Below are positions 26,177-39,501 of a stretch of DNA of 42,262 nucleotides, one piece after another. The notes under the pieces are model-generated. The model ran no database searches, was not told the DNA's origin, and saw only the letters and a program-made list of their open reading frames with translations. Position numbers and translations under genes: made by a program. How positions within the stretch are numbered: the first letter of the stretch is position 1; every line of letters starts with the position of its first letter. Source of the DNA: an uncultured Flavobacteriales bacterium (lineage in GTDB: Bacteria; Bacteroidota; Bacteroidia; Flavobacteriales; BACL11); the NCBI GenBank assembly GCA_905181635.1, contig CAJIYM010000007.1, forward strand, positions 1-42,262, read 5' to 3'.

Positions 26177-28945
26177 ATGGATTACAATTTTAACAAGCTA
26201 GAAAAAAAGTGGCAAGCTTACTGGAAGGCGAATGAGACCTATAAAGTAGAGGTAGATACAAGTAGGCCAAAGTACTATGTTTTGGATATGTTTCCTTATC
26301 CTTCAGGTGCGGGCTTACATGTTGGCCATCCTCTAGGTTATATTGCTTCTGATGTATACGCTCGTTATAAAAAATTAAAGGGCTTTAACGTTTTGCATCC
26401 TATGGGATATGATTCTTTTGGTTTACCAACTGAACAATATGCTATACAGACAGGTATTCACCCCGCAGTAGCTACAAAAGATAATACAGAAAGGTATAGG
26501 AAACAGCTAGATCAAATTGGCTTTTCATTTGATTGGAGTCGTGAAGTACAAACCTCTGACCCTAATTATTATAAATGGACTCAGTGGATTTTTAAGCAAC
26601 TTTTCGGTTCTTATTATTGTAATGGAAGAAATAAAGCCATACCAATTACAGGTTTAATTTCTGACTTTGAGAAAACGGGTAATACTAAAACTAATGCAGT
26701 TTGTGATGATAATACACCAAAATTTTCATCAATAGAGTGGGGTGATTTTACAGATCTAGAAAAAGAAAAAATGCTGTTGAATTATCGATTAGCATTTTTA
26801 TCAGATACTTGGGTGAACTGGTGTGAAGGTTTAGGAACGGTATTAGCCAATGATGAGGTAAAAGATGGATTATCAGAAAGAGGGGGTTTTCCGGTTGAAC
26901 AGAAGCTAATGAAACAATGGTCATTAAGAATTACTGCTTATGCTGATAGGTTGATTTCAGGACTAGATACAGTAGATTGGTCGGATTCAATAAAAGAAAT
27001 CCAAAAAAATTGGATAGGAAAATCTAAAGGTGTTTCTGTAATTTTTAAATTGGAAAATTCTGAAAATGAAATAGAAGTATTTACAACTCGCCCAGATACT
27101 ATTTTTGGAGTTAATTTTATGGTTTTAGCCCCAGAACATGAGTTAGTAAATATAATTACAACTGCTACACAAATAGATGAAGTAGAAAGATATGTGAATA
27201 AAGCGAAACTAAAATCAGAAAGAGATAGGCAAGCTGATAATAGTGTTAGCGGAGTATTTACTGGAGCTTATGCTATTCATCCTTTTACAGGTAATAAAGT
27301 TCAAGTTTGGATTGGAGATTATGTATTGGTATCTTACGGAACAGGTGCTGTTATGGCGGTTCCTTGTGGTGATCAAAGGGATTGGGATTTTGCTAATCAC
27401 TTTGGTTTGGATATAATTAATATTTTTGAAGAAGTTGATGTTACTGAAGGAGCAAATGAGGACAAAAATGTAAAAATTGCGCACTCCGATTTTTTAAATG
27501 GCATGACAGTTAAGGAGGCTATGAATTTGGCAATTTTTAAAATCGAAGAAGGTCGTTTTGGGAAAAGTAAAATAAATTATCGTTTGCGTGACGCTATATT
27601 TAGCCGTCAAAGATACTGGGGTGAACCTTTCCCTGTATATTATAAAAATGATACGGCTTATGTTTTAGACGATAATAAACAAGTTACATTGCCTGCGATC
27701 GATAAATATTTGCCAACTGTAAGTGGTGAGCCTCCATTGGCAAGAGCAAAAAAAGAGGATTGGAGTATATTTGAAGGAGATAGAATGGAAACCAATATCA
27801 TGCCAGGATGGGCAGGTAGTTCTTGGTATTTTTTGCGTTACATGGACCCAAATAATGATGGTGAGTTTTGTGCAAAAGAAAAATCTGATTATTGGGGGCA
27901 AGTAGATTTGTATATTGGAGGTGCTGAGCATGCTGTCGGACATTTATTATATTCTCGTTTCTGGACTAAATTTTTGTACGATAGAGGATTTATTTCTTTT
28001 GATGAGCCGTTTAAAAAAATGATTAACCAAGGAATGATTTTAGGTAGATCGAGTTTTGTGTATAGAATAAATGACACCAATACTTTTGTGAGCTTTGATA
28101 AGAGAAAGAAATATAAAACTACAAGACTACATACTGATATTAGCTTTGTGAATAATGATTTACTTGATGTGGAGGCATTTAAAAATTGGCGAGAAGAATA
28201 TGCTAATGCTGAATTTATTCTAAATAAGGATGGAAAATATTTATGTGGACATGAAGTGGAGAAAATGTCAAAATCAAAATACAATGTACAAACTCCAGAT
28301 AAATTGGTAGAAGATTTTGGGGCAGATACTTTGCGTTTGTATGAAATGTTTTTAGGACCATTAGAACAGTTTAAGCCTTGGGATGTAAAGGGGATAAATG
28401 GTGTACATAATTTCCTGCGTAAGTTCTGGCGTTTGGTACATGACACAGAAAATAACTTTTCAGTTTCAGACAAAGAACCCTCAAATGAAGATTACAAGGC
28501 TCTTCATAAAACTATTAAAAAAGTGGAGGAAGAGATTGAGCGTTATTCTTTTAATACTGTAGTTAGTACTTTTATGATTTGTATAAATGAATTGACAGAG
28601 CTAAAATGTAATAACAGAGAAATAATCACTGATTTTACAATTTTACTTTCTTCTTACGCGCCTCATATTGCTGAGGAGATTTGGAGTAAATTAGGTAATG
28701 AAACTTCAGTTACTAAGGCAAGTTTCCCCGAATTTAATTCCAGTTATTTAGTAGAAAATGAAGTAAACTACCCAATTTCGTTTAATGGAAAAATGCGATT
28801 TAAAATTATTTTACCTGCTGAAATGAGTAAAGAACAGGTGGAGGTTGAGGTGATGAAACATAAAAAAACAGCTCATTATTTGGAAGGAAAGTTGCCTAAA
28901 AAAATAATTGTAGTGCCAAAAAGAATTGTAAATATAGTAATGTAG
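26177..28945 (+). CDS. leuS: Leucine--tRNA ligase
   Basis: A 922-residue class I aminoacyl-tRNA synthetase charging tRNA-Leu. The HIGH-type motif is HVGH (residues 48-51) in MFPYPSGAGLHVGHPLGY, and the KMSKS motif is at residues 696-700. The CP1 editing domain (about residues 230-440) has FTTRPDTIFGVNFM and the conserved GTGAVMAVPCGDQRDWDF. The tRNA-binding C-terminal domain is complete. A Bacteroidota-type insertion lies before KMSKS (about 620-690). The next gene starts six bases after the stop. Confidence 0.97.
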   Translation: MDYNFNKLEKKWQAYWKANETYKVEVDTSRPKYYVLDMFPYPSGAGLHVGHPLGYIASDVYARYKKLKGFNVLHPMGYDSFGLPTEQYAIQTGIHPAVATKDNTERYRKQLDQIGFSFDWSREVQTSDPNYYKWTQWIFKQLFGSYYCNGRNKAIPITGLISDFEKTGNTKTNAVCDDNTPKFSSIEWGDFTDLEKEKMLLNYRLAFLSDTWVNWCEGLGTVLANDEVKDGLSERGGFPVEQKLMKQWSLRITAYADRLISGLDTVDWSDSIKEIQKNWIGKSKGVSVIFKLENSENEIEVFTTRPDTIFGVNFMVLAPEHELVNIITTATQIDEVERYVNKAKLKSERDRQADNSVSGVFTGAYAIHPFTGNKVQVWIGDYVLVSYGTGAVMAVPCGDQRDWDFANHFGLDIINIFEEVDVTEGANEDKNVKIAHSDFLNGMTVKEAMNLAIFKIEEGRFGKSKINYRLRDAIFSRQRYWGEPFPVYYKNDTAYVLDDNKQVTLPAIDKYLPTVSGEPPLARAKKEDWSIFEGDRMETNIMPGWAGSSWYFLRYMDPNNDGEFCAKEKSDYWGQVDLYIGGAEHAVGHLLYSRFWTKFLYDRGFISFDEPFKKMINQGMILGRSSFVYRINDTNTFVSFDKRKKYKTTRLHTDISFVNNDLLDVEAFKNWREEYANAEFILNKDGKYLCGHEVEKMSKSKYNVQTPDKLVEDFGADTLRLYEMFLGPLEQFKPWDVKGINGVHNFLRKFWRLVHDTENNFSVSDKEPSNEDYKALHKTIKKVEEEIERYSFNTVVSTFMICINELTELKCNNREIITDFTILLSSYAPHIAEEIWSKLGNETSVTKASFPEFNSSYLVENEVNYPISFNGKMRFKIILPAEMSKEQVEVEVMKHKKTAHYLEGKLPKKIIVVPKRIVNIVM

Positions 28946-28951
28946 GTAAAA

Positions 28952-29500
28952 ATGACATTAGATAAATTATTAGCTAATTTTTATAGGAAAAATAGAATTC
29001 CTTCAGATGGAGGTGTCAATAAAAATAATTTTAGGATTAAAGCATTTGGAATTAATTTAAACCTTCCGAATCCAAAATTCAGAAAAGATGTAACTCATAT
29101 TCATGATATTCACCACATACTAAATAAGTGCAACGCAAATTGGAAGGGAGAGGCTTTTATTGCTGGCTGGGAAATTTCAACTGGATTTTGGAAATATTTT
29201 CCGATTTGTATTATAAGTCTATGGGCAATGGCATATAGTCTATGGCTACATACTAAAGCTGTTTTAAAAGGATTCAAAAAAGGCTTGAATAATATTGGGG
29301 TTATTGACTTAAAATTAAGTAGGTCTGAACTTATGAAATTAGAGTTTGACCAGTTAATTAATATAACTACAAAAGAAAAAACTACTCAAATAGTCATTAT
29401 TGACTATCTTCAATTTTTATTTTGGGTTGTAACAAGTCAATTAATATTTCTATTTCCTTTAATTTTAATAATTACCAGTATTATATATCTGAAAAAATAA
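28952..29500 (+). CDS. Coq4-like membrane protein
   Basis: A 182-residue protein whose N-terminal half carries HDIHHILNKCNANWKGE (about residues 50-66), an exact fit to HDxxHx11E, the metal-binding signature of Coq4. Yeast and human Coq4 act in coenzyme Q assembly and C1 modification of the ring. The C-terminal half differs from eukaryotic Coq4: two hydrophobic segments (about 76-95 and 149-178) make it a membrane protein. The phylum normally makes menaquinone, so a ubiquinone role is not expected and the substrate is unknown. It lies six bases after leuS and 9 bp before a UbiA-like gene, which suggests a shared lipid or isoprenoid substrate. Confidence 0.6.
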   Translation: MTLDKLLANFYRKNRIPSDGGVNKNNFRIKAFGINLNLPNPKFRKDVTHIHDIHHILNKCNANWKGEAFIAGWEISTGFWKYFPICIISLWAMAYSLWLHTKAVLKGFKKGLNNIGVIDLKLSRSELMKLEFDQLINITTKEKTTQIVIIDYLQFLFWVVTSQLIFLFPLILIITSIIYLKK

Positions 29501-29509
29501 AATATAGAA

Positions 29510-30322
29510 TTGAAATCATTCATTCGCTTTATTGTTTTTAGTAATATTTGGGTTGCATTTTGTGTGCTCGCTTTGGCTTTGAGTTCGGAATTATTGATTA
29601 GCGCTACAAATTATCAAATTAGTCAATTTGTATTTTTTGCGACTCTATTTACTTATAATTTTCAAAGGATTGTGAGAATTAAAAAGGGCTTGAATCATAT
29701 TCGTAAAGTTTGGCTAGCAAAGCAAAATATTGCTATTTATTTATTAATGGCATGCGGTGGATTAGTAAGTGTCTATCTCTTTTTTGAGTTTCAATTAATA
29801 ACTCAACTTTTTATAATTACTGTAGGCTTGATCTCTATTTTATATCCTTTTGGTTTAAGGGAGATTCCATTTAGTAAAATCTTCATCATTTCTTTTGTGT
29901 GGACCGTAAGCACTATGCTTTTGTTAGTACTTGAAAATAATATCCCCATTTCACAAAATATTGTATTGCACTTATTGTCACGATTTTTGTTTGTTTTCGC
30001 TATAACTATCCCTTTCGATATTAGAGATTTGAAGTATGACGCTCAAAATCTACAAACACTTCCATTATTTTTTGGTATTTTAAAAGCAAGATTTATTGCT
30101 CTTTTTGCTTTGTTTATGTGTTTGGTGATTTCAGTTTTTCAGCACTTAGAAAACACCATAATATCTTCAAATTTACTAGCATTAATTTTTCTGTATTTTG
30201 TTACTTCAATCTTTATAGTTAAATCTGATAAAAAAAGGGGTGAAATGTACTTTTCATTTTGGGTAGAATCTCTGAGTATTTTATGCTATTTATTTTTTGT
30301 AATTTCAGTTTTGATTTTTTAA
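29510..30322 (+). CDS. UbiA-like polyprenyltransferase homologue lacking first Asp motif (TTG start)
   Basis: A 270-residue membrane protein with about eight hydrophobic segments. The second UbiA-family motif is visible as DIRDLKYD (about residues 171-178, DxxDxxxD) after ITIPF. At the place of the first motif (NDxxDxxxD) the sequence instead reads YNFQRIVRIKKG (about 49-60), with no aspartate. True UbiA enzymes need both motifs to hold Mg2+ and the prenyl diphosphate, so this protein may be inactive, altered or acting with a partner. No in-frame ATG exists near the start; TTG at 29510 is the most likely initiator. It lies between the Coq4-like gene and kynA. Confidence 0.66.
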   Translation: MKSFIRFIVFSNIWVAFCVLALALSSELLISATNYQISQFVFFATLFTYNFQRIVRIKKGLNHIRKVWLAKQNIAIYLLMACGGLVSVYLFFEFQLITQLFIITVGLISILYPFGLREIPFSKIFIISFVWTVSTMLLLVLENNIPISQNIVLHLLSRFLFVFAITIPFDIRDLKYDAQNLQTLPLFFGILKARFIALFALFMCLVISVFQHLENTIISSNLLALIFLYFVTSIFIVKSDKKRGEMYFSFWVESLSILCYLFFVISVLIF

Positions 30323-30362: not shown

Positions 30363-31451
30363 ATGTCAGAAGAAACAACATCAGTACATTACATAAATTA
30401 CTTGGCTCTTGATAAGGTTTTAGATTCACAAAATCTACTTAGTGGGGATGGTAAAGAAGCGGCACATGAGGAGATGTTGTTTATTATCATTCATCAAACT
30501 TATGAATTGTGGTTTAAGCAAATTCTTCATGAGATAGGTTCAACAATGGATTTGTTTAAAGCGGATAAAATTAACGAAAGTAGTGTTGGGGTTATAGTTA
30601 GAAGAATGGATAGAGTGAATAAAGTTATGACCACTTTGATTGGTCAGTTGGATATCTTAGAAACTATGACTTCCTTGGATTTCTTAGACTTTAGAGATCA
30701 CTTATCTCCCGCATCTGGTTTTCAGTCACATCAATTCAGAAAGATAGAAGTAATGCTGGGACTAAAGATTAAGAAAAGACATCAGTTTGGAGGATGTCCT
30801 TATCATAGTCAATTTGAGGGGGATAAGAAAGAAGAAATTTTAAATTTAGAAGTAACCGAATCTTTATTTTATTTAGTTGAGAAATGGTTAGAAAGAATCC
30901 CATTTTTAAATATGGAGGGCTTTGATTTTACTCAAAAATATGATGTAGCAGTAAAGCAGATGTTGGACAAAGAAATTGCAGGAATTATAGCAGCAAACTT
31001 AACGGATAGCGATAGGGAAATCAGAATTCGTATGATTGAGGAAAACAAAAAGTATTTTGAAAGAGTGCTTTCTGAATCGGAACACAACAAAGCGATTCAA
31101 GATGGAGAAACAACCCTTTCTTATAGAGCTACAATGTCAGCGCTACTAATTAATTTATACAGAGATCAACCGATCTTACATTTACCATATCAGTTCCTTA
31201 GAAGCTTGGTTGAGTTTGATCATAAAATTGCAACCTGGAGGTTTAGGCATGTTCAAATGGTTGAAAAGATGTTAGGGCAAAAAATTGGGACTGGCGGCAG
31301 TTCAGGTCAAGGATATTTGAAAGAAACAGTGGACAAGCACAAAATATTTACCGATTTGGCAAATATTTCAACACTAATGATTTCTCGCTCCTACTTACCG
31401 GAATTACCACAAAATATAAAAGATACATTAGGATTTAATTATAAAAAATAA
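30363..31451 (+). CDS. kynA: Tryptophan 2,3-dioxygenase
   Basis: A 362-residue haem dioxygenase that opens the indole ring of L-tryptophan to N-formylkynurenine, the first and committing step of the pathway encoded here. IIIHQTYELWFKQILHE contains the active-site His56. GFQSHQFRKIEVMLG (about 119-133) holds the substrate-binding Arg127. WRFRHVQMVEKMLG carries the haem ligand His296, and GTGGSSGQGYLKET is the loop that closes over the substrate. At 362 residues it is longer than the roughly 300-residue proteobacterial enzymes. No -7 box was seen in the 40-bp gap before it, so transcription may come from the genes upstream. Confidence 0.95.
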   Translation: MSEETTSVHYINYLALDKVLDSQNLLSGDGKEAAHEEMLFIIIHQTYELWFKQILHEIGSTMDLFKADKINESSVGVIVRRMDRVNKVMTTLIGQLDILETMTSLDFLDFRDHLSPASGFQSHQFRKIEVMLGLKIKKRHQFGGCPYHSQFEGDKKEEILNLEVTESLFYLVEKWLERIPFLNMEGFDFTQKYDVAVKQMLDKEIAGIIAANLTDSDREIRIRMIEENKKYFERVLSESEHNKAIQDGETTLSYRATMSALLINLYRDQPILHLPYQFLRSLVEFDHKIATWRFRHVQMVEKMLGQKIGTGGSSGQGYLKETVDKHKIFTDLANISTLMISRSYLPELPQNIKDTLGFNYKK

Positions 31452-31462
31452 TTATAGAATAA

Positions 31463-32242
31463 ATGAATTTAGATTTAAAAAATAAAAACGCTATTGTCTG
31501 TGGATGTACTCAAGGAATAGGTCTGGCAACAGCTATTGAATTAGCAAATATTGGAGCCAATATTACTCTTATTGCAAGAAATGAATCAAAACTAAAAGAA
31601 GTCATGACATTACTTGATACAACTCAAGGTCAGAAACATTCTTTATTAGTTGTAGATTTTTCTGAATCAAATAGTTTGAAAGAAAAAATAAAACTGCTAG
31701 CTAGTAATTATCATATCTTAATAAACAATACTGGAGGCCCTGCTGGAGGTCCAATTTCTGCTGCAAATACTCAATCATTTGAAGATGCTTTCAAAATGCA
31801 CTTAATTAACAATCAGATCTTAGTGCAGAAAGTTGTTGATGGTATGAAAAAGGAATGTTTTGGTCGCATAATTAATATTCTTTCTACTTCTGTAAAAGCA
31901 CCAATTCCAGGACTAGGAGTTTCTAACACAATTAGAGCGGCAGTTGCTAATTGGGCAAAAACACTTTCTATTGAATTAGGGGGGCACGGAATTACAGTTA
32001 ATAATGTTCTCCCAGGATTCACAAATACAAATAGATTAGAGAGTATAATTTCTAATAGATCAAAAAAGCAAGGAAAATCAGAAAAGGATATAGCGCAGAT
32101 AATGAAATCTTCAGTGCCAGCAAATCGCTTTGGGGAAGCTAATGAAGTTGCTAATGCAATAGCTTTTTTATGTAGCCCAGCTGCAGCGTATATTAATGGA
32201 ATCAACCTCCCAGTAGACGGAGGAAGAACTGCAAGCTTATAA
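31463..32242 (+). CDS. SDR family protein with atypical active site
   Basis: A 259-residue Rossmann-fold protein of the short-chain dehydrogenase/reductase family. The cofactor loop CGCTQGIGLA (TGxxxGxG variant, about residues 13-22) and the NNTGGPAGG motif (about 88-96) are present, and the C-terminal PVDGG is normal. The active-site Ser (in ILSTSV) is present, but the usual YxxxK is replaced by SNTIR (in LGVSNTIRAA, about 152-161). This LSNxxR-type variant recurs in a subgroup of SDRs. Its place in the kynurenine cluster suggests a role with an aldehyde or keto intermediate, but no reaction can be assigned. Its stop overlaps the next ATG by one base. Confidence 0.8.
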   Translation: MNLDLKNKNAIVCGCTQGIGLATAIELANIGANITLIARNESKLKEVMTLLDTTQGQKHSLLVVDFSESNSLKEKIKLLASNYHILINNTGGPAGGPISAANTQSFEDAFKMHLINNQILVQKVVDGMKKECFGRIINILSTSVKAPIPGLGVSNTIRAAVANWAKTLSIELGGHGITVNNVLPGFTNTNRLESIISNRSKKQGKSEKDIAQIMKSSVPANRFGEANEVANAIAFLCSPAAAYINGINLPVDGGRTASL

Positions 32243-33686
32243 TGGAAAAGATTTTAAATTATATAAATGGAGATTTAGTAGAACCTACAAACGGAAATTA
32301 TTTAGATAATTATAATCCCTCAAATGGTCAGGTATATTCTTTAATACCAGATTCTGAAAAATTAGATATTGATAATGCAGTAGAAGCAGCTAAGGAAGCT
32401 TTTAAAACTTGGAGTGTAACTCCAAAGCAAAAGCGTTCGGATATATTAATGAAGCTAGCAGATACGATTGAAAAATATTCTGATGAACTTATAAAGGCAG
32501 AAAGTAAAGATAATGGTAAGCCAGAATCTTTGGCTGCTCATGTGGATATTCCAAGGGCACCAGCCAATATTCGTTTCTTTGCAGGAGCAATATTACATGA
32601 TAGTTCAGAAATGCATGAAATGGATGGAATGGCTATTAACTATACATTGCGTCAACCAATTGGTGTAGCAGCCTGTATCTCACCCTGGAATTTACCCTTA
32701 TATTTACTTACTTGGAAAATTGCACCAGCTCTTGCTTCAGGAAATACAGTAGTTGCAAAACCCTCTGAAGTTACTCCAATGACGGCTTATATCTTAAGTA
32801 AAATTTGTATTGAATCGGGGTTACCAAAAGGTGTTTTAAATATAGTTCACGGATTGGGAAGTAAAACAGGAGATCCTTTAACTACTCATCTTGATACCCC
32901 TATTATTTCTTTTACTGGAGGAACTATTACAGGAAAACATATAGCAACTGTGACAGCACCAATGTTTAAAAAAATATCTTTGGAGTTGGGCGGTAAAAAT
33001 CCAAATATAATTTTTGCAGATGCTGATTTTGATAAGGCAGTAAGTATGGCAGCTCGTGCAGCATTTACCAATCAAGGTCAGATTTGTTTGTGTGGTTCTC
33101 GTCTGTTTGTTCAAGAAGAGATTTACGATAAATTTAAAGATGCTTTAGTTGCCAAAACTGCAAAACTAAAAGTGGGTGACCCAAAAGATACATCCTCTAA
33201 TTTAGGAGCGGTAGTTTCTAAAAATCATATGGAGAAAATTTTAGATAAAATTGAATTAGCAAAAACTTTAGGAGGAAAAATTTTAATTGGTGGAGAAAGG
33301 GAAATACTCGAAGGAGATTTAAAAAACGGCATACTATCTCCAGCCTACAATTATTGAAGGATTATCTTCTGATTGCGATATTAATCAAGAAGAGATTTTT
33401 GGACCTGTTGTATCTTTAATTTCATTTAAAACAGAAGAACAGGTAGTGGAAATGGCTAACTCTACAAAGTATGGATTGTCAGCCTCTATATTTACCGAAA
33501 ACATAAGTAAAGCCCATAGAGTTGCTGCAAATATTGATGCTGGTATTGTATGGATTAATACATGGCTTGCTTAGAGATTTAAGAATTCCTTTTGGAGGGA
33601 TGAAGCAGTCAGGTGTTGGAAGGGAGGGTGGTTTTAAATCTCTTCAATTTTTCACAGAATCTAAAAATGTATGTGTTAAAATATAA
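32242..33686 (+). pseudogene. 2-aminomuconate-semialdehyde dehydrogenase, interrupted by two +1 frameshifts
   Basis: An aldehyde dehydrogenase that would be 480 residues if two single-base insertions were removed. The uninterrupted frame ends at 33357 (371 residues). It contains the NAD-binding region, the general base Glu248 (SLELGGKNP) and the catalytic Cys282 (NQGQICLCGSR). An extra A at 33331 shifts the frame, and the correct sequence resumes as QPTIIEGLS. An extra G at 33569 shifts it again before RDLRIPFGGMKQSGVGREGG. Best family fit is 2-aminomuconate or 2-hydroxymuconate semialdehyde dehydrogenase, which suits its place before the RidA-type deaminase and with ACMS decarboxylase. The missing C-terminal part forms the dimer and bridging strands, so the truncated protein is unlikely to be stable. 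A sequencing error is a real alternative. Confidence 0.88.
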
Positions 33687-33688
33687 AG

Positions 33689-34145
33689 ATGACAACACAA
33701 TTGCAAGTTGAAATAAATAAAGTAGATGCTGAGAAGATTAGACCTTTAAGGCATTCTGAATTAAGAAAAGGTCAAGATTATTTCTACTACTTCTTATCTG
33801 AAGGATTATGAAGAAGGCACTTTTCACATGGCTTGTATTGTAGATGATAAAATTGTAACCTGCGCTACATTTTATGCTCAGACATCAATGAAAATAAAAT
33901 CCGAATAATGCATATAGATTAAGAGGAATGGCAACTGATTCTCAACTTTCAAAGAAAAGGTTATGCTAGAAATTTAATGTGTAGAATCATTTAAAGAACT
34001 TAAAAAAAGAGATTGTGATATGGTGTGGTGTAATGCCCGTTTAGTTGCAGTCAATTTTTATAAATCTGTAGGATTTAAGATTATCGGAGAGCTTTTTGAC
34101 ATTGAAGCAATAGGTCCTCATTATTATATGTATAAAGAAATTTAA
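33689..34145 (+). pseudogene. GNAT family acetyltransferase, interrupted by four +1 frameshifts
   Basis: A reading frame of 150 codons becomes continuous from ATG 33689 to TAA 34143-34145 if four single extra bases are removed, at about 33779 (T), 33906 (T), 33946 (C) and 33983 (A). The reconstructed protein has an opening IRPLRHSELRKGQ, a middle YRLRGMATDSQ stretch followed by QRKGYARNLM (the acetyl-CoA pyrophosphate loop, Q/RxxGxG/A type), and a C-terminal WCNARLVAVNFYKSVGF, all typical of GNAT N-acetyltransferases. As given, no single frame spans it. The substrate is unknown. It starts two bases after the aldehyde dehydrogenase stop and ends four bases before the RidA gene, so it was built as part of this operon. 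Confidence 0.8.
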
Positions 34146-34149
34146 AGAA

Positions 34150-34566
34150 ATGAACGGAGAGAAATTTAATTCAGATAGAGCGCCTCAGGCAGTAGGGCTA
34201 TACCCTCATGCTCGTAAAGTTGGAGATTTATTGTTTTTATCTGGTGTAGGGCCAAGAAAAGCTGGCCAAATTGATATTCCTGGTGTAACACTAAATACTA
34301 ACGGAGATATAGATAATTACGATATTGAAGCTCAATGTCATTCTGTTTTTGAAAATATTCGCTTTATTCTTGAAGATGCGGGCTCCTCTTGGGGTAATAT
34401 TATTGATGTTCAGGTCTTCCTTACTAATATGAAAGATGATTTTAAAACGTATAATAAAATATATGCAGAGTATTTTAAGGAAAATCAGCCTTGCAGAACA
34501 ACTATTGAAATAAAGAGTTTGCCAACACCAATTGCAATTGAACTAAAAGTAATTGCAACCATTTAA
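34150..34566 (+). CDS. RidA family protein, probable 2-aminomuconate deaminase
   Basis: A 138-residue protein of the RidA/YjgF/UK114 family. The conserved arginine that binds the substrate carboxylate is in QPCRTTIEI (about residue 117), and PIAIELKVIATI is the C-terminal active-site strand with its Glu. LFLSGVGPRKAG is the usual N-terminal block. Most RidA proteins hydrolyse reactive enamines and imines. Members located in 3-hydroxyanthranilate gene clusters are 2-aminomuconate deaminases, and the context here (next to HAAO and ACMSD genes) supports that role. It is the first gene after the frameshifted stretch and is intact. Confidence 0.87.
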   Translation: MNGEKFNSDRAPQAVGLYPHARKVGDLLFLSGVGPRKAGQIDIPGVTLNTNGDIDNYDIEAQCHSVFENIRFILEDAGSSWGNIIDVQVFLTNMKDDFKTYNKIYAEYFKENQPCRTTIEIKSLPTPIAIELKVIATI

Positions 34567-34577
34567 AACTATAAATT

Positions 34578-35108
34578 ATGAGCACTATCAGAAAACCTTT
34601 TAACTTCCTTAAATGGATAGAAGACAATAAAGATTTACTAAAACCACCAGTTGGGAATAAGTGTCTGTATACCGAATCAGGTGATTTTATTATTATGGTA
34701 GTTGGAGGGCCGAATGCTAGAAAAGATTATCATTATAACGAAACAGAGGAATTCTTTTACCAAATAAAAGGAGATATTGTTTTAAGAATTCAGGAAGAAG
34801 GAAATGCTGTAGATATTCCAATTAATGAGGGAGAAGTGTTTTTATTGCCTGCCAAAATTCCACATTCTCCTATACGTTCAGAAGGGTCTGTTGGTATGGT
34901 AATTGAATGTAGAAGAACTGCAAATGAAAGAGATGGACTTATGTGGTTTTGTGATAATTGCAATGAGCCTTTACATGACACTTATTTCCAATTAACTAAT
35001 GTTGAAAAGGATTTTCAGCCTAGATTTAAAGAGTTTTATTCCTCTGAAGATAAGAGAACTTGCAATAATTGTGGAAATACTATGGAGGTAGATAAACGAT
35101 TCATATAA
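34578..35108 (+). CDS. nbaC: 3-hydroxyanthranilate 3,4-dioxygenase
   Basis: A 176-residue cupin dioxygenase that opens 3-hydroxyanthranilate to 2-amino-3-carboxymuconate semialdehyde (ACMS). The catalytic Fe2+ ligands are His52 and Glu58 (in DYHYNETEEFF) and His96 (in IPHSPIR), with substrate-binding Arg99 and Glu110. The C-terminal rubredoxin-like iron site typical of bacterial enzymes is complete: Cys125, Cys128, Cys162 and Cys165 (CDNC and CNNC). The length equals the Cupriavidus-type protein. The gene lies directly before ACMS decarboxylase with a 2-bp gap. Confidence 0.96.
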   Translation: MSTIRKPFNFLKWIEDNKDLLKPPVGNKCLYTESGDFIIMVVGGPNARKDYHYNETEEFFYQIKGDIVLRIQEEGNAVDIPINEGEVFLLPAKIPHSPIRSEGSVGMVIECRRTANERDGLMWFCDNCNEPLHDTYFQLTNVEKDFQPRFKEFYSSEDKRTCNNCGNTMEVDKRFI

Positions 35109-35110
35109 AT

Positions 35111-36127
35111 ATGAATAAACTATTCACCATTGATATTCACACTCATATTTTACCAGAAAACATCCCTAACTTTAAAGAGAAATTTGGATATGGAGGGTTT
35201 GTAAGTTTAGATCATCATAAGCCCTGTTGTGCTAAAATGATGATGGATGATAAATTTTTTAGAGAGGTAGATGATAATTGTTGGTCGGATGAAGCTAGGA
35301 TTAAAGAATGTGATAAGCTAGGAGTGGATGTGCAAGTTTTATCTACTGTCCCTGTTATGTTTTCTTACTGGGCAAAGGACAAGGATACTCTTGTAGTTGC
35401 AGAATTTTTAAATGACCATATTGCCGATATTGTAAAGAGAAATCCTAAACGATTTATTGGTTTAGGTACAGTCCCAATGCAAAATCCAGATTTAGCAATT
35501 CAAGAATTAACTAGATGTAAAGAGCTTGGATTAAGAGGGATACAAATTGGTTCTCATATTAATGACTGGAATTTGGACAGGGATGAACTTTTTCCTATTT
35601 TTCAAAAATGTGAAGAATTAGAGATGAGTATTTTTGTTCACCCTTGGGATATGATGGGCAAAGAGAAAATGGAAAAGTACTGGTTACCTTGGTTGGTTGG
35701 TATGCCTGCGGAAACCTCCTTGGCTATTTGTTCCATGATTTTTGGAGGTGTATTCGAACGCTTACCAAACTTAAAAGTAGCCTTTGCTCATGGTGGAGGA
35801 TCTTTTCCTGCCACTATTGGGAGAATTGAGCATGGGTTTAATGTGCGCCCTGATTTATGCGCTATTGACAACAAGGTAAATCCTAGAGATTATTTAGGTA
35901 ATTTTTATTTAGATAGTTTAGTGCATGAGCCAAAAATGTTAGAATTTATTGTTGATATGATGGGGGAAGATAAAATTTGTTTAGGAACCGATTACCCCTT
36001 CCCTTTAGGAGAATTAGAGCCAGGGAAGCTTATTAACGAAATGAACTATACCAATGCTAAAAAGTCTAAGCTGTTGGCTGAAAATGCTTTGAATTGGTTA
36101 GGGGTCAAAAAAGAAGATTTTATATGA
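35111..36127 (+). CDS. 2-amino-3-carboxymuconate-6-semialdehyde decarboxylase (ACMSD)
   Basis: A 338-residue zinc amidohydrolase-type decarboxylase. It converts ACMS to 2-aminomuconate semialdehyde, so it directs carbon to breakdown and away from spontaneous closure to quinolinate and NAD. Metal ligands are His10 and His12 (DIHTHILPE), the His in SIFVHPWDM (about 177), the His in VAFAHGGGSFP (about 228), and the Asp in CLGTDYPFPLGE (about 293). PVMFSYWAKD is another family block. The stop overlaps the next gene's start (ATGATGA). Product removal needs the aldehyde dehydrogenase that is frameshifted in this cluster. Confidence 0.95.
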   Translation: MNKLFTIDIHTHILPENIPNFKEKFGYGGFVSLDHHKPCCAKMMMDDKFFREVDDNCWSDEARIKECDKLGVDVQVLSTVPVMFSYWAKDKDTLVVAEFLNDHIADIVKRNPKRFIGLGTVPMQNPDLAIQELTRCKELGLRGIQIGSHINDWNLDRDELFPIFQKCEELEMSIFVHPWDMMGKEKMEKYWLPWLVGMPAETSLAICSMIFGGVFERLPNLKVAFAHGGGSFPATIGRIEHGFNVRPDLCAIDNKVNPRDYLGNFYLDSLVHEPKMLEFIVDMMGEDKICLGTDYPFPLGELEPGKLINEMNYTNAKKSKLLAENALNWLGVKKEDFI

Positions 36128-36927
36128 TGAAGGCAAAAATTAGTTTCAAAACTATTGATTTTGAAGTAAACTTTTCTAAAGGAAATGACATTTCTATTCC
36201 TATAAATTTTAATGGAGAACAACCTAATACTTATGGGGTTGACGGCGCAACTTCTAAACCTTATCAAGATGGGCAGTTTATTGGAGATACTCGAAAAGGT
36301 GGCCCTTGTAATTTTGAAACGTATAGTTTTACTCCTCATTGCAACGGTACACATACTGAGTGTATTGGTCATATTACGGATGCAAGGATTAGTATTTTAA
36401 CTTCACTTAATAAGGAAATGATACGGGCAACTTTGGTTTCTGTTACGCCAAGAAACACAACGGAGAATTATACTCCTAACTTAAATAAAGGGGATCTAGT
36501 TATTACTAAAGAAGATTTGGAGTCTAAACTAAAAGCTTTAAACCCTGCTTTTTTGCAAGGATTAATTATTAGAACTACGCCTAATTTAGAAAACAAGAAA
36601 AGTAGAGATTACATGAAATTTGCTCCTGCTTTTTTCAGTATTGATGCAATGAAGTATATTGTAAGTTTGGGTGTAGATCATTTATTGGTTGACACCCCAT
36701 CAGTTGACAGATTGCTTGATGATGGACACCTTTCTGCTCATAATGTTTTTTGGGAAACAAAAGGAAAAGAGTTTAACCCAAATACACAAAATAAAACCAT
36801 AACAGAAATGATATTTGCTCCTTCTTATTTAGAGGATGGAGCCTATTTATTAAACTTGCAAATTCCTGCATTTGTTTCCGATGCAGCACCTAGCAGGCCC
36901 ATAATATACAAGATAAATGAATTATAA
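36124..36927 (+). CDS. Cyclase family protein, probable kynurenine formamidase
   Basis: A 267-residue metal-dependent hydrolase of the cyclase/arylformamidase family. The best fit by context is kynurenine formamidase, which turns N-formylkynurenine into kynurenine. The metal site appears as SFTPHCNGTHTECIGH (about residues 69-84), a variant of the HxGTHxDxPxH motif of KynB in which HCNGTHTE replaces HxGTHxD. DTPSVDRLLDDGHLSAHNVFW is the second conserved block. It is longer than KynB (about 210 residues). ATG codons at 36124 and 36127 are both in frame, and the first overlaps the ACMSD stop. It supplies the only formamidase candidate in the cluster. The last 11 bp overlap kynU. Confidence 0.78.
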   Translation: MMKAKISFKTIDFEVNFSKGNDISIPINFNGEQPNTYGVDGATSKPYQDGQFIGDTRKGGPCNFETYSFTPHCNGTHTECIGHITDARISILTSLNKEMIRATLVSVTPRNTTENYTPNLNKGDLVITKEDLESKLKALNPAFLQGLIIRTTPNLENKKSRDYMKFAPAFFSIDAMKYIVSLGVDHLLVDTPSVDRLLDDGHLSAHNVFWETKGKEFNPNTQNKTITEMIFAPSYLEDGAYLLNLQIPAFVSDAAPSRPIIYKINEL

Positions 36928-38167
36928 AAACACAGCAGATTTTGCTATAGAATTAGATTCAAAAGATGAATTAAGAAGCTATAGAAATGAGTTTTATATT
37001 CCCTTACAAAAAAATGGAGAGGAGCATATTTATATGTGTGGAAATTCTTTAGGGTTGCAGCCTAAACGAACCAAACAATTTTTAAATCAAGAATTAGATG
37101 ATTGGGCTACTTTTGGAGTGGAAGGGCATTTTCATGCTAAAAATCCTTGGCTTCCATATCATGAGTTTTTAGCTGAAAGCTATGCTAAAATAGTTGGAGC
37201 AAAAAGTACCGAAGTAGTTGCTATGAATACCCTTACGGTAAACTTGCATTTAATGATGGTTTCTTTTTATCGACCAACCCAAAAAAGACATAAAATTATT
37301 ATTGAAGGAGATGCATTTCCATCTGATATTTACGCAGTTGAATCGCAAATAAAACATCATGGATTTTTACCAGAAAATTCTTTAATAAAGCTAAGGCCTC
37401 GAGTTGGAGAGTCTGCTATCAGAACAGAAGATATTGCCGAAATCATTCAATCAGAAGGTGGTGAAATAGCTTTGATTATGTTGGGAGGAGTGAACTACTA
37501 TACGGGTCAGGTTTTTGATTTTGAAATTATTACAAAGTTAGCGCATAACAAGGGAATTACTGTTGGATTTGACTTAGCTCACGCAGCAGGAAATGTAAAA
37601 TTAGAACTTCATAAGTGGGAAGTTGATTTTGCGGTATGGTGTTCATATAAATACTTAAATTCTGGACCTGGCTCGGTTGCTGGTGCGTTTATACATGAAA
37701 AACATCATAAGGCAAATTTACCAAGATTTGCAGGTTGGTGGGGGCACAATAAAGAAGAGCGTTTTAAAATGCCAGATAAATTTAATCCTATTGCTAGCGC
37801 TGAGGGTTGGCAATTGAGCAATCCTCCTATTTTATCTTTAGCGGCAATTCGCGCTTCACTTTCTATTTTTGATGAAGTAGGCATTGATAAATTAGTTTTA
37901 AAATCTAAAAAACTTACAGATTATTTAGTTTTTCTATTAAATTCAATTGAAAGCGATCGAATAGAAATTATTACTCCAAAAGAAAGAGGTTGTCAGCTTT
38001 CTATCCGAGTTAAGAATGGTGATAAAAAGTTGTTTGACTCAATAACTGTAAAGGGGGTAATTGCTGACTGGAGGGAGCCAGATGTAATTCGTATCGCACC
38101 AATTCCTCTCTATAATAGCTTTCAAGATGTTTTTAAATTTTACACAATACTAGAAGAAGAATTATAA
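36917..38167 (+). CDS. kynU: Kynureninase
   Basis: A 416-residue PLP-dependent hydrolase that splits 3-hydroxykynurenine into 3-hydroxyanthranilate and alanine (or kynurenine into anthranilate). The PLP lysine is Lys245 in WCSYKYLNSGPG, and Asp219 with His222 in GFDLAHAAGN hold the cofactor ring. IYMCGNSLGLQPK near the start and RFAGWWGH in the middle are typical of kynureninases. It overlaps the formamidase by 11 bp and kmo by one base. Because kmo and HAAO are both present, the 3-hydroxy substrate is the likely one here. Confidence 0.96.
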   Translation: MNYKNTADFAIELDSKDELRSYRNEFYIPLQKNGEEHIYMCGNSLGLQPKRTKQFLNQELDDWATFGVEGHFHAKNPWLPYHEFLAESYAKIVGAKSTEVVAMNTLTVNLHLMMVSFYRPTQKRHKIIIEGDAFPSDIYAVESQIKHHGFLPENSLIKLRPRVGESAIRTEDIAEIIQSEGGEIALIMLGGVNYYTGQVFDFEIITKLAHNKGITVGFDLAHAAGNVKLELHKWEVDFAVWCSYKYLNSGPGSVAGAFIHEKHHKANLPRFAGWWGHNKEERFKMPDKFNPIASAEGWQLSNPPILSLAAIRASLSIFDEVGIDKLVLKSKKLTDYLVFLLNSIESDRIEIITPKERGCQLSIRVKNGDKKLFDSITVKGVIADWREPDVIRIAPIPLYNSFQDVFKFYTILEEEL

Positions 38168-39501
38168 TGAAAAAAAATATTACAATTGTAGGGGCAGGAC
38201 TAGCAGGTTCTTTATGTGCCCTGTATTTAACTAAAAGAGGGCACAATGTTTCTATTTTTGAAAGAAGAAATGATTTGCGGTCTGAAATTATTACTGCAGG
38301 CAAGTCTATTAATTTAGCACTTTCTGAAAGGGGTCTAACAGCATTAAAAAAAGTTGGTGTTGAAGCAGAGGTAATGAACATTGCTATTGCTATGGATAAA
38401 CGAATAATGCATGATGAAAAAGGTAATTTAACAGAGCAACTATACGGAAATGATGGTCAGGCAATTTATTCTGTTTCACGAGCACAACTAAATGTACTCA
38501 TGATGAAATTAGCAGCCAAAAATGGAGCTGATCTTTATTTCAATGAGAAATGTATTGATGCTAATCTTGAGGATGCTAGTGTAATTTTTGAAAATACTAA
38601 TACAAATCAAAAGCAGACTGTTAAGTCTGATTTGATAATTGGTGCAGATGGGGCTTTTTCAGCTGTTAGAAAACAAATGGTGGAGCAGTATGACCATGAT
38701 TTTGATTATAATAAAATTGATCACGATTATAAAGAATTACATATACCTGCAGGAAAAAACGGGTCTTTTTTATTAGATAAAAATGCCCTTCATATTTGGC
38801 CAAGAGGAGAGTTTATGCTTATTGCATTAGCAAATTTAGATGGTAGCTTTACATGTACATTATTTGCACCTAAAAAAGGAGAAAAATCATTTGAAGGGTT
38901 AAACTCCGAGATAGAGGTAGAAAATTATTTTAGTGCTATTTTCCCAGATTTTTTAAATTTAGTCCCTGACTTATATAAGCAATGGATTGCTAATCCAACA
39001 TCTGGCTTAGGTATTATAAAAACTTTTCCTTGGCATATCAAAGATACTGCGGTATTGATTGGTGATTCTGCTCATGCAACTGTTCCGTTTTATGGGCAAG
39101 GAATGAATGCCAGTCTTGAGGATTGCAGAATGCTTGATGAATTATTAGATAAGCATGGTGAAGATCTTAAATCGTGCTTTTCAGAGTACTCTATAACTAG
39201 AAAGCCTAACGGTGATGGGTTGCAGGATCTATCTATGCAGAATTTTATAGTAATGCGTGATAATACAGCTGATCCTACCTTTTTACTTCAGAAAGAAATA
39301 GAAAAGAAATTTTCTAATCTATATCCTGAAAAATGGATTCCACTTTATTCCATGGTTAGTTTTACTAATATTCCTTATGCTGATGCCTGGAAAATAGGAA
39401 TGAAGCAGGAAAAAATGATGGAAGAGATTATGAAAATTAAAAATATTGAAAAAGAGTGGGAAAGTGATGTAATAATGAATAAAATGTGCAGTTTAGTGTA
39501 A
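38167..39501 (+). CDS. kmo: Kynurenine 3-monooxygenase
   Basis: A 444-residue FAD monooxygenase that hydroxylates kynurenine to 3-hydroxykynurenine with NADPH and O2. The dinucleotide-binding GAGLAGSLCALYLTKRGHNV (about residues 8-27) is at the N-terminus. SINLALSERGLTALKKVG, LIIGADGAFSAVRKQM (the DG motif) and LIGDSAHATVPFYGQGMNASLED (the GD motif, about 300-322) are all complete. The C-terminal region lacks the long membrane anchor of eukaryotic Kmo, as in bacterial enzymes. It is the last gene of the cluster, followed by 298 bp of noncoding DNA. Confidence 0.96.
   Translation: MKKNITIVGAGLAGSLCALYLTKRGHNVSIFERRNDLRSEIITAGKSINLALSERGLTALKKVGVEAEVMNIAIAMDKRIMHDEKGNLTEQLYGNDGQAIYSVSRAQLNVLMMKLAAKNGADLYFNEKCIDANLEDASVIFENTNTNQKQTVKSDLIIGADGAFSAVRKQMVEQYDHDFDYNKIDHDYKELHIPAGKNGSFLLDKNALHIWPRGEFMLIALANLDGSFTCTLFAPKKGEKSFEGLNSEIEVENYFSAIFPDFLNLVPDLYKQWIANPTSGLGIIKTFPWHIKDTAVLIGDSAHATVPFYGQGMNASLEDCRMLDELLDKHGEDLKSCFSEYSITRKPNGDGLQDLSMQNFIVMRDNTADPTFLLQKEIEKKFSNLYPEKWIPLYSMVSFTNIPYADAWKIGMKQEKMMEEIMKIKNIEKEWESDVIMNKMCSLV

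Follow-up and report, generated by a model that had tools for sequence, protein, structure and literature searches.

The window, the whole 42,262-nucleotide stretch of DNA that was analysed, carries a short gene (28952..29500, + strand) whose predicted product is a Coq4-superfamily protein anchored through a hydrophobic C-terminus. The gene begins with an ATG start codon, and at 182 amino acids its product is full length in comparison with its relatives. It is intact and under purifying selection, with dN/dS values of 0.13-0.23 against its three nearest relatives. Upstream lies leuS (26177..28945, + strand), which is a flanking gene and no part of the system, and downstream lies a UbiA-like gene on the same strand (29510..30322). 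Beyond these, 30363-39501 holds an almost complete operon for tryptophan degradation of the kynurenine type. Its genes encode a tryptophan dioxygenase, an SDR, an aldehyde dehydrogenase, a Rid protein, a 3-hydroxyanthranilate dioxygenase, a kynureninase, and a KMO-like monooxygenase, along with an amidohydrolase and a formamidase that were assigned by reading as ACMSD-like and cyclase-like, respectively. Within this operon (32242-34150), two frame changes, one near 33345 and the other at about 33590, interrupt the aldehyde dehydrogenase, and the GNAT-like reading that extends to 34150 also shifts frame; these breaks reflect either assembly indels or pseudogenes.

Coq4 is a metal-binding protein that aids coenzyme Q synthesis. 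A sequence-only reading of this DNA had pointed to an exact match to the Coq4 metal-site motif HDxxHx11E, and the match is indeed exact in a real open reading frame, with HDIHHILNKCNANWKGE at residues 51-67 (29102..29152, + strand). Among the six-frame open reading frames of at least 80 amino acids in the window, the motif occurred in this one only, where 0.017 occurrences were expected from composition. It was also absent from 332 proteins encoded next to relatives of the gene. These relatives were collected from genome contigs and from whole genomes that share the window's family, order, class, or phylum, giving an alignment of 32 rows with proteins of approximately 175-215 amino acids. Eleven columns were invariant (L7, P39, N40, R44, H51, D52, H55, G66, E67, E74, and G111), five of which fall within the motif. 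The exact x11 spacing was kept in 28 of the 32 relatives and was x12 in the other four, which indicates that the motif is more than a chance occurrence.

Two further regions set the protein apart. The first is an insert that precedes the motif (residues 17-44; 29000..29083, + strand) and contains a conserved GG (G20, G21), PN (P39, N40), and R (R44) in the 32-row alignment, but is gapped against Pfam-positive Coq4 relatives in hhalign comparisons. The second is a C-terminal hydrophobic stretch (residues about 152-181; 29405..29494, + strand), which by Kyte-Doolittle hydropathy may fold as a single membrane helix or else as a tight hairpin. Hydropathy reached 2.44 over 19 residues, and every complete relative has a similar stretch. 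In the window protein it is single and continuous, beginning at about residue 147 or 152 and running to 181 for approximately 30 residues with an internal proline; in relatives it extends to approximately 45 residues, and many rows likewise contain an internal proline. Two extra membrane segments had been proposed at the C-terminus, a description that the hydropathy profile does not bear out: there is one stretch, and the other hydrophobic segment (about residues 81-105, mean up to 1.34) lies within the part that aligns to the Coq4 core. The hydropathy profile nonetheless makes it very likely that the protein is anchored in the membrane.

The window protein scored 12.1 bits against the Pfam Coq4 model PF05019 (E 0.12), below the gathering cut-off of 22.9, and the best E-value among the 32 family members was 0.0014. 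As the gathering score was not reached, the protein is filed as a divergent relative within the superfamily and not as a member of PF05019. When the profile built from the 32 relatives was searched against the whole PDB, only two proteins were returned with E <1, and both were of the Coq4 type: 3msq (E 3.8e-5) and 6e12, the structure of Alr8543 (E 0.0059), each aligned over approximately 95 residues. Residues H51, D52, H55, and E67 align with H120, D121, H124, and E136 of 6e12, which are its metal ligands (PMC9774615). In hhalign, the window family matched Pfam-positive Coq4 proteins of Bacteroidota with 98.2% probability (E 5.8e-14), and this match extends beyond the motif; the part after the motif aligned to the same proteins with an E of about 1e-6, a value from a single pairwise comparison and not a database-search E-value. 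Bacteroidota Coq4 proteins that Pfam partly recognises in turn match Alr8543 at 6.6e-9. An AlphaFold2 model built from an input of four sequences only, with a pLDDT of 41 and a pTM of 0.21, was too poor to judge the fold, so that the support for a helical Coq4 fold with clustered H, D, and E comes from the alignment register with Alr8543.

The suggested relation to Coq4 therefore holds as real homology, given the PDB profile matches, the hhalign result, and the register of the ligands with Alr8543. The protein has both the HDxxH-x(10-13)-E motif of the superfamily and homology to solved Coq4-type proteins outside it, and its sequence almost certainly places it as a divergent superfamily member. 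Its low PF05019 score reflects the limited sensitivity of a single profile and does not point to a missing structural feature. The aligned region delimits a predicted Coq4-type core at about residues 48-146 that carries all four putative metal ligands, and the conservation of H51, D52, H55, and E67 makes metal binding by this core likely. The active site may differ from that of Alr8543, since E74, P39-N40, and R44 are also invariant in the family, and E74 pairs with a non-acidic residue of 3msq.

Comparison with known Coq4-type proteins shows which parts are held in common. The COG5031/PF05019 proteins of Bacteroidota (L038-L046) share the HDxxHx11E core, the region after the motif up to a conserved glycine, and a similar N-terminal helix. 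Most of them lack both the insert of approximately 25 residues before the motif, with its conserved GG, PN, and R, and the C-terminal hydrophobic stretch, and six of the nine pass the Pfam cut-off that the window protein fails. One of them (L044, 1243-1944) has a hydrophobic C-terminal extension of its own, and anchoring may therefore have more than one origin. Alr8543 from Nostoc (PDB 6e12, formerly 3kb4) and 3msq have their metal ligands in register with the window family over the approximately 95 aligned residues. Both are longer, at about 225 amino acids compared with 182, their N-terminal region before the motif is unmatched, and the C-terminal extension is absent from them in the alignment. 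Eukaryotic COQ4, a Zn-dependent C1 decarboxylase or oxidative decarboxylase of coenzyme Q precursors, shares HDxxHx11E, and any metal chemistry in the window protein would be attributed to it by analogy. Eukaryotic COQ4 is, however, a peripheral matrix protein of the coenzyme Q complex with a ubiquinone substrate, whereas COQ partners were undetected for the window protein.

The genomic context indicates how the gene came to its present site. The sister genomes lack the coq4-like gene: there leuS is followed by the UbiA-like gene, at a spacer of 15-64 bp, and then by tdo, with no other gene between them. In the window this spacer is replaced by a segment (28946..29509, + strand) made up of exactly the coq4-like gene and two short gaps, 6 bp on the leuS side and 9 bp on the side of the UbiA-like gene, as mapped from synteny and from the spacer sequences of the sister genomes. 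Both flanks match the sisters, with leuS 90-92% identical in the four closest and the leuS, UbiA-like, and tdo proteins 84-96% identical between these and the window, which makes an assembly error at the insertion unlikely. The contig does contain small frame errors at other positions, so the insertion is best read with some caution. No terminal repeats of note that would explain the insertion mechanism were present at the mapped boundaries.

The coq4-like gene was found in one of the 52 genomes of the window's own family, in 5 of 395 at the order level, and in 25 of 395 at the class level by profile search. One additional order-level match (E 5.7e-4) was discarded as spurious, having internal stops and no motif. 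The closest relatives are 65-67% identical and come from Flavobacteriaceae-type genomes where their neighbours are unrelated to those in the window. On the basis of this rarity within the family, the placement of the closest relatives, and the empty site in the sisters, horizontal acquisition of a single gene is the simplest account and a highly probable one.

This history bears on the UbiA-like neighbour, which the sequence-only reading had pointed out. The adjacency is real, and the neighbour passes the PF01040 cut-off (35.2 bits compared with 34.2), but a functional link is unsupported. The two genes might together prenylate and modify a quinone-like lipid, a reading favoured by their shared strand, by the 9 bp gap, and by the fact that the substrates of COQ4 are prenylated aromatic acids produced by COQ2, an enzyme of the UbiA family. 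Against this, the UbiA-like gene is present in 45 of the 52 family genomes, 44 of which lack the coq4-like gene, so co-occurrence of the two is not conserved, and the coq4-like gene has different surroundings in other genomes. Throughout the family, the UbiA-like gene keeps its place between leuS and tdo. Its product also lacks the aspartate of the first motif, which reads YNxQR in 22 of 23 orthologues and YNFQS in the remaining orthologue. The DIRDxxxD motif is intact, and judged by the two motifs the protein represents a degenerate UbiA subfamily. A partnership is thus very improbable and was rejected on the empty site in the sister genomes. The adjacency is instead a result of the insertion, with the UbiA-like gene a downstream flank and not a partner.

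The sequence-only reading had also presumed a menaquinone-producing host, and the quinone genes fit this. None of the 18 genomes that carry the coq4-like gene had a ubiquinone-type hydroxylase (TIGR01988) over the cut-off, and the setting of Coq4 proper, a ubiquinone-making organism with COQ6/UbiH hydroxylase partners, is therefore not the one found here. MenB was over its cut-off in 10 of the 18 carriers but not in the remaining 8, including the window's genome, which is only about 70% complete, making its absences weak evidence. This genome has a UbiA-family gene that exceeds the TIGR01475 cut-off and is MqnP-like, although under the MqnP cut-offs. The matched portion of a CtaB-like gene scores under its cut-off, and both a third UbiA-family gene and a UbiD-family gene (214.6 bits) are present as well. 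The gene set is consistent with menaquinone synthesis, possibly by the futalosine route, for which Coq4 would not be needed.

In animals, Coq4 fills the role of UbiD (PMC7615680), and the best quinone-type prenyltransferase of the window's genome resembles MqnP, so that the coq4-like protein might be thought to replace UbiD/MqnL as the menaquinone-pathway decarboxylase of its host. This is highly improbable and was rejected because the window's genome retains its own UbiD-family gene, as do 37 other family genomes that lack the coq4-like gene; some carriers, moreover, have MenB over the cut-off. One family genome (G007) contains 14 UbiD-family genes, and the others have one or none. Because the host has its own UbiD-family and MqnP-like genes, and carriers occur both with and without MenB, the role of the coq4-like protein would be an accessory one, and the protein is unlikely to belong to the core quinone pathway of its host.

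Clustering of the 332 neighbour proteins of relatives found no conserved operon partner for the coq4-like gene beyond close clades. YitT and acyltransferase genes recur in one clade, and genes for Crp-type regulators occur at five scattered loci, directly upstream at two of them. One relative (L082; G541:C12, 7459-9517) lies inside a phenylacetyl-CoA oxygenase operon in the order paaA-coq4-paaB-paaC, which is an isolated case. Another (L077, 6655-8387) lies between a Crp-type regulator gene and a quinone-reductase-like flavodoxin-fold gene that starts right at its end. A patchy distribution as a single gene with changing neighbours could also be expected of a defence, toxin, or mobile-element cargo gene that uses the Coq4 fold. 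However, the window protein had no PADLOC or PHROG match, its relatives had only weak matches to membrane helices, and no relatives were found in 50,697 phage records, 72,556 plasmid records, or viral contigs, which leaves such a role scarcely credible.

Taken as a whole, we propose a horizontally acquired, membrane-anchored Coq4-type metalloprotein that acts on a lipophilic carboxylate or lipid, a reading to which we give about even chances. The gene would have been acquired horizontally on its own, replacing the spacer between leuS and the resident UbiA-like gene. The Coq4-type core would bind Zn2+ or Mg2+ as its divalent metal, and a lipophilic substrate would be held between the helices of the core, at the face of the membrane, in the manner of the geranylgeranyl or fatty-acid ligand of Alr8543. 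In the least certain step, the protein would use the metal to help decarboxylate a carboxylic acid, lipophilic or aromatic, in an accessory reaction outside the menaquinone pathway. Such catalysis is a tentative suggestion by analogy to ancestral COQ4, which performs Zn2+-dependent C1 decarboxylation of prenylated aromatic acids, an activity that H/H and D/E double mutants lose (PMC7615680). Human COQ4 has likewise been reported as an oxidative decarboxylase (as cited in PMC11495197). The substrate and the reaction are guesses here, since no partner gene is conserved beyond close clades.

The main rival to an enzyme is a non-catalytic carrier or scaffold with the Coq4 fold, in which the metal site would grip a prenyl phosphate or fatty acid by its head group and present it at the membrane. 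Structures of Alr8543 show, between hydrophobic helices, a geranylgeranyl phosphate and, in later work, oleic acid with Mg2+ (PMC9774615), Coq4 was long regarded as a scaffold of the coenzyme Q complex (PMC11495197), and the lack of a conserved enzyme partner points the same way. The four ligands and E74, however, do not vary even among highly diverged relatives, a pattern that a reaction would explain no less well, and catalysis is known for COQ4. Carrier and enzyme are inseparable by sequence, and we consider a carrier somewhat unlikely.

A Coq4 motif in a menaquinone organism had been presented as an oddity. The carriers do lack detectable ubiquinone genes, but the surprise is reduced by the presence of PF05019 Coq4 (COG5031) over the cut-off in 6 of 198 other Bacteroidota genomes and by the annotation of a COG5031 Coq4-like protein in Chryseobacterium oranimense (PMC10710014). 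Coq4-like proteins annotated in menaquinone Bacteroidota are therefore already known; in the literature searched, we found no tested function for a bacterial Coq4 relative. What is new is a divergent, predicted anchored Coq4 subfamily below the Pfam cut-off, together with evidence of single-gene movement. The finding is modest, in that homology is established, Coq4-like proteins in Bacteroidota were annotated before, and the function is proposed by analogy.

It matters in that the Pfam Coq4 model overlooks a whole subfamily and the reaction of COQ4 was assigned only recently. A compact, anchored relative in bacteria with no detectable ubiquinone genes would allow Coq4 chemistry to be studied apart from the coenzyme Q complex, and would reveal a role for the Coq4 fold where ubiquinone is not the product. 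It is possible, though doubtful, that this patchy and widespread anchored subfamily in ubiquinone-free Bacteroidota acts on a membrane lipid or a lipophilic aromatic acid through a new metal-dependent decarboxylation or a related reaction, travelling as a self-sufficient single gene. If so, Coq4 chemistry would be older and broader than ubiquinone synthesis.
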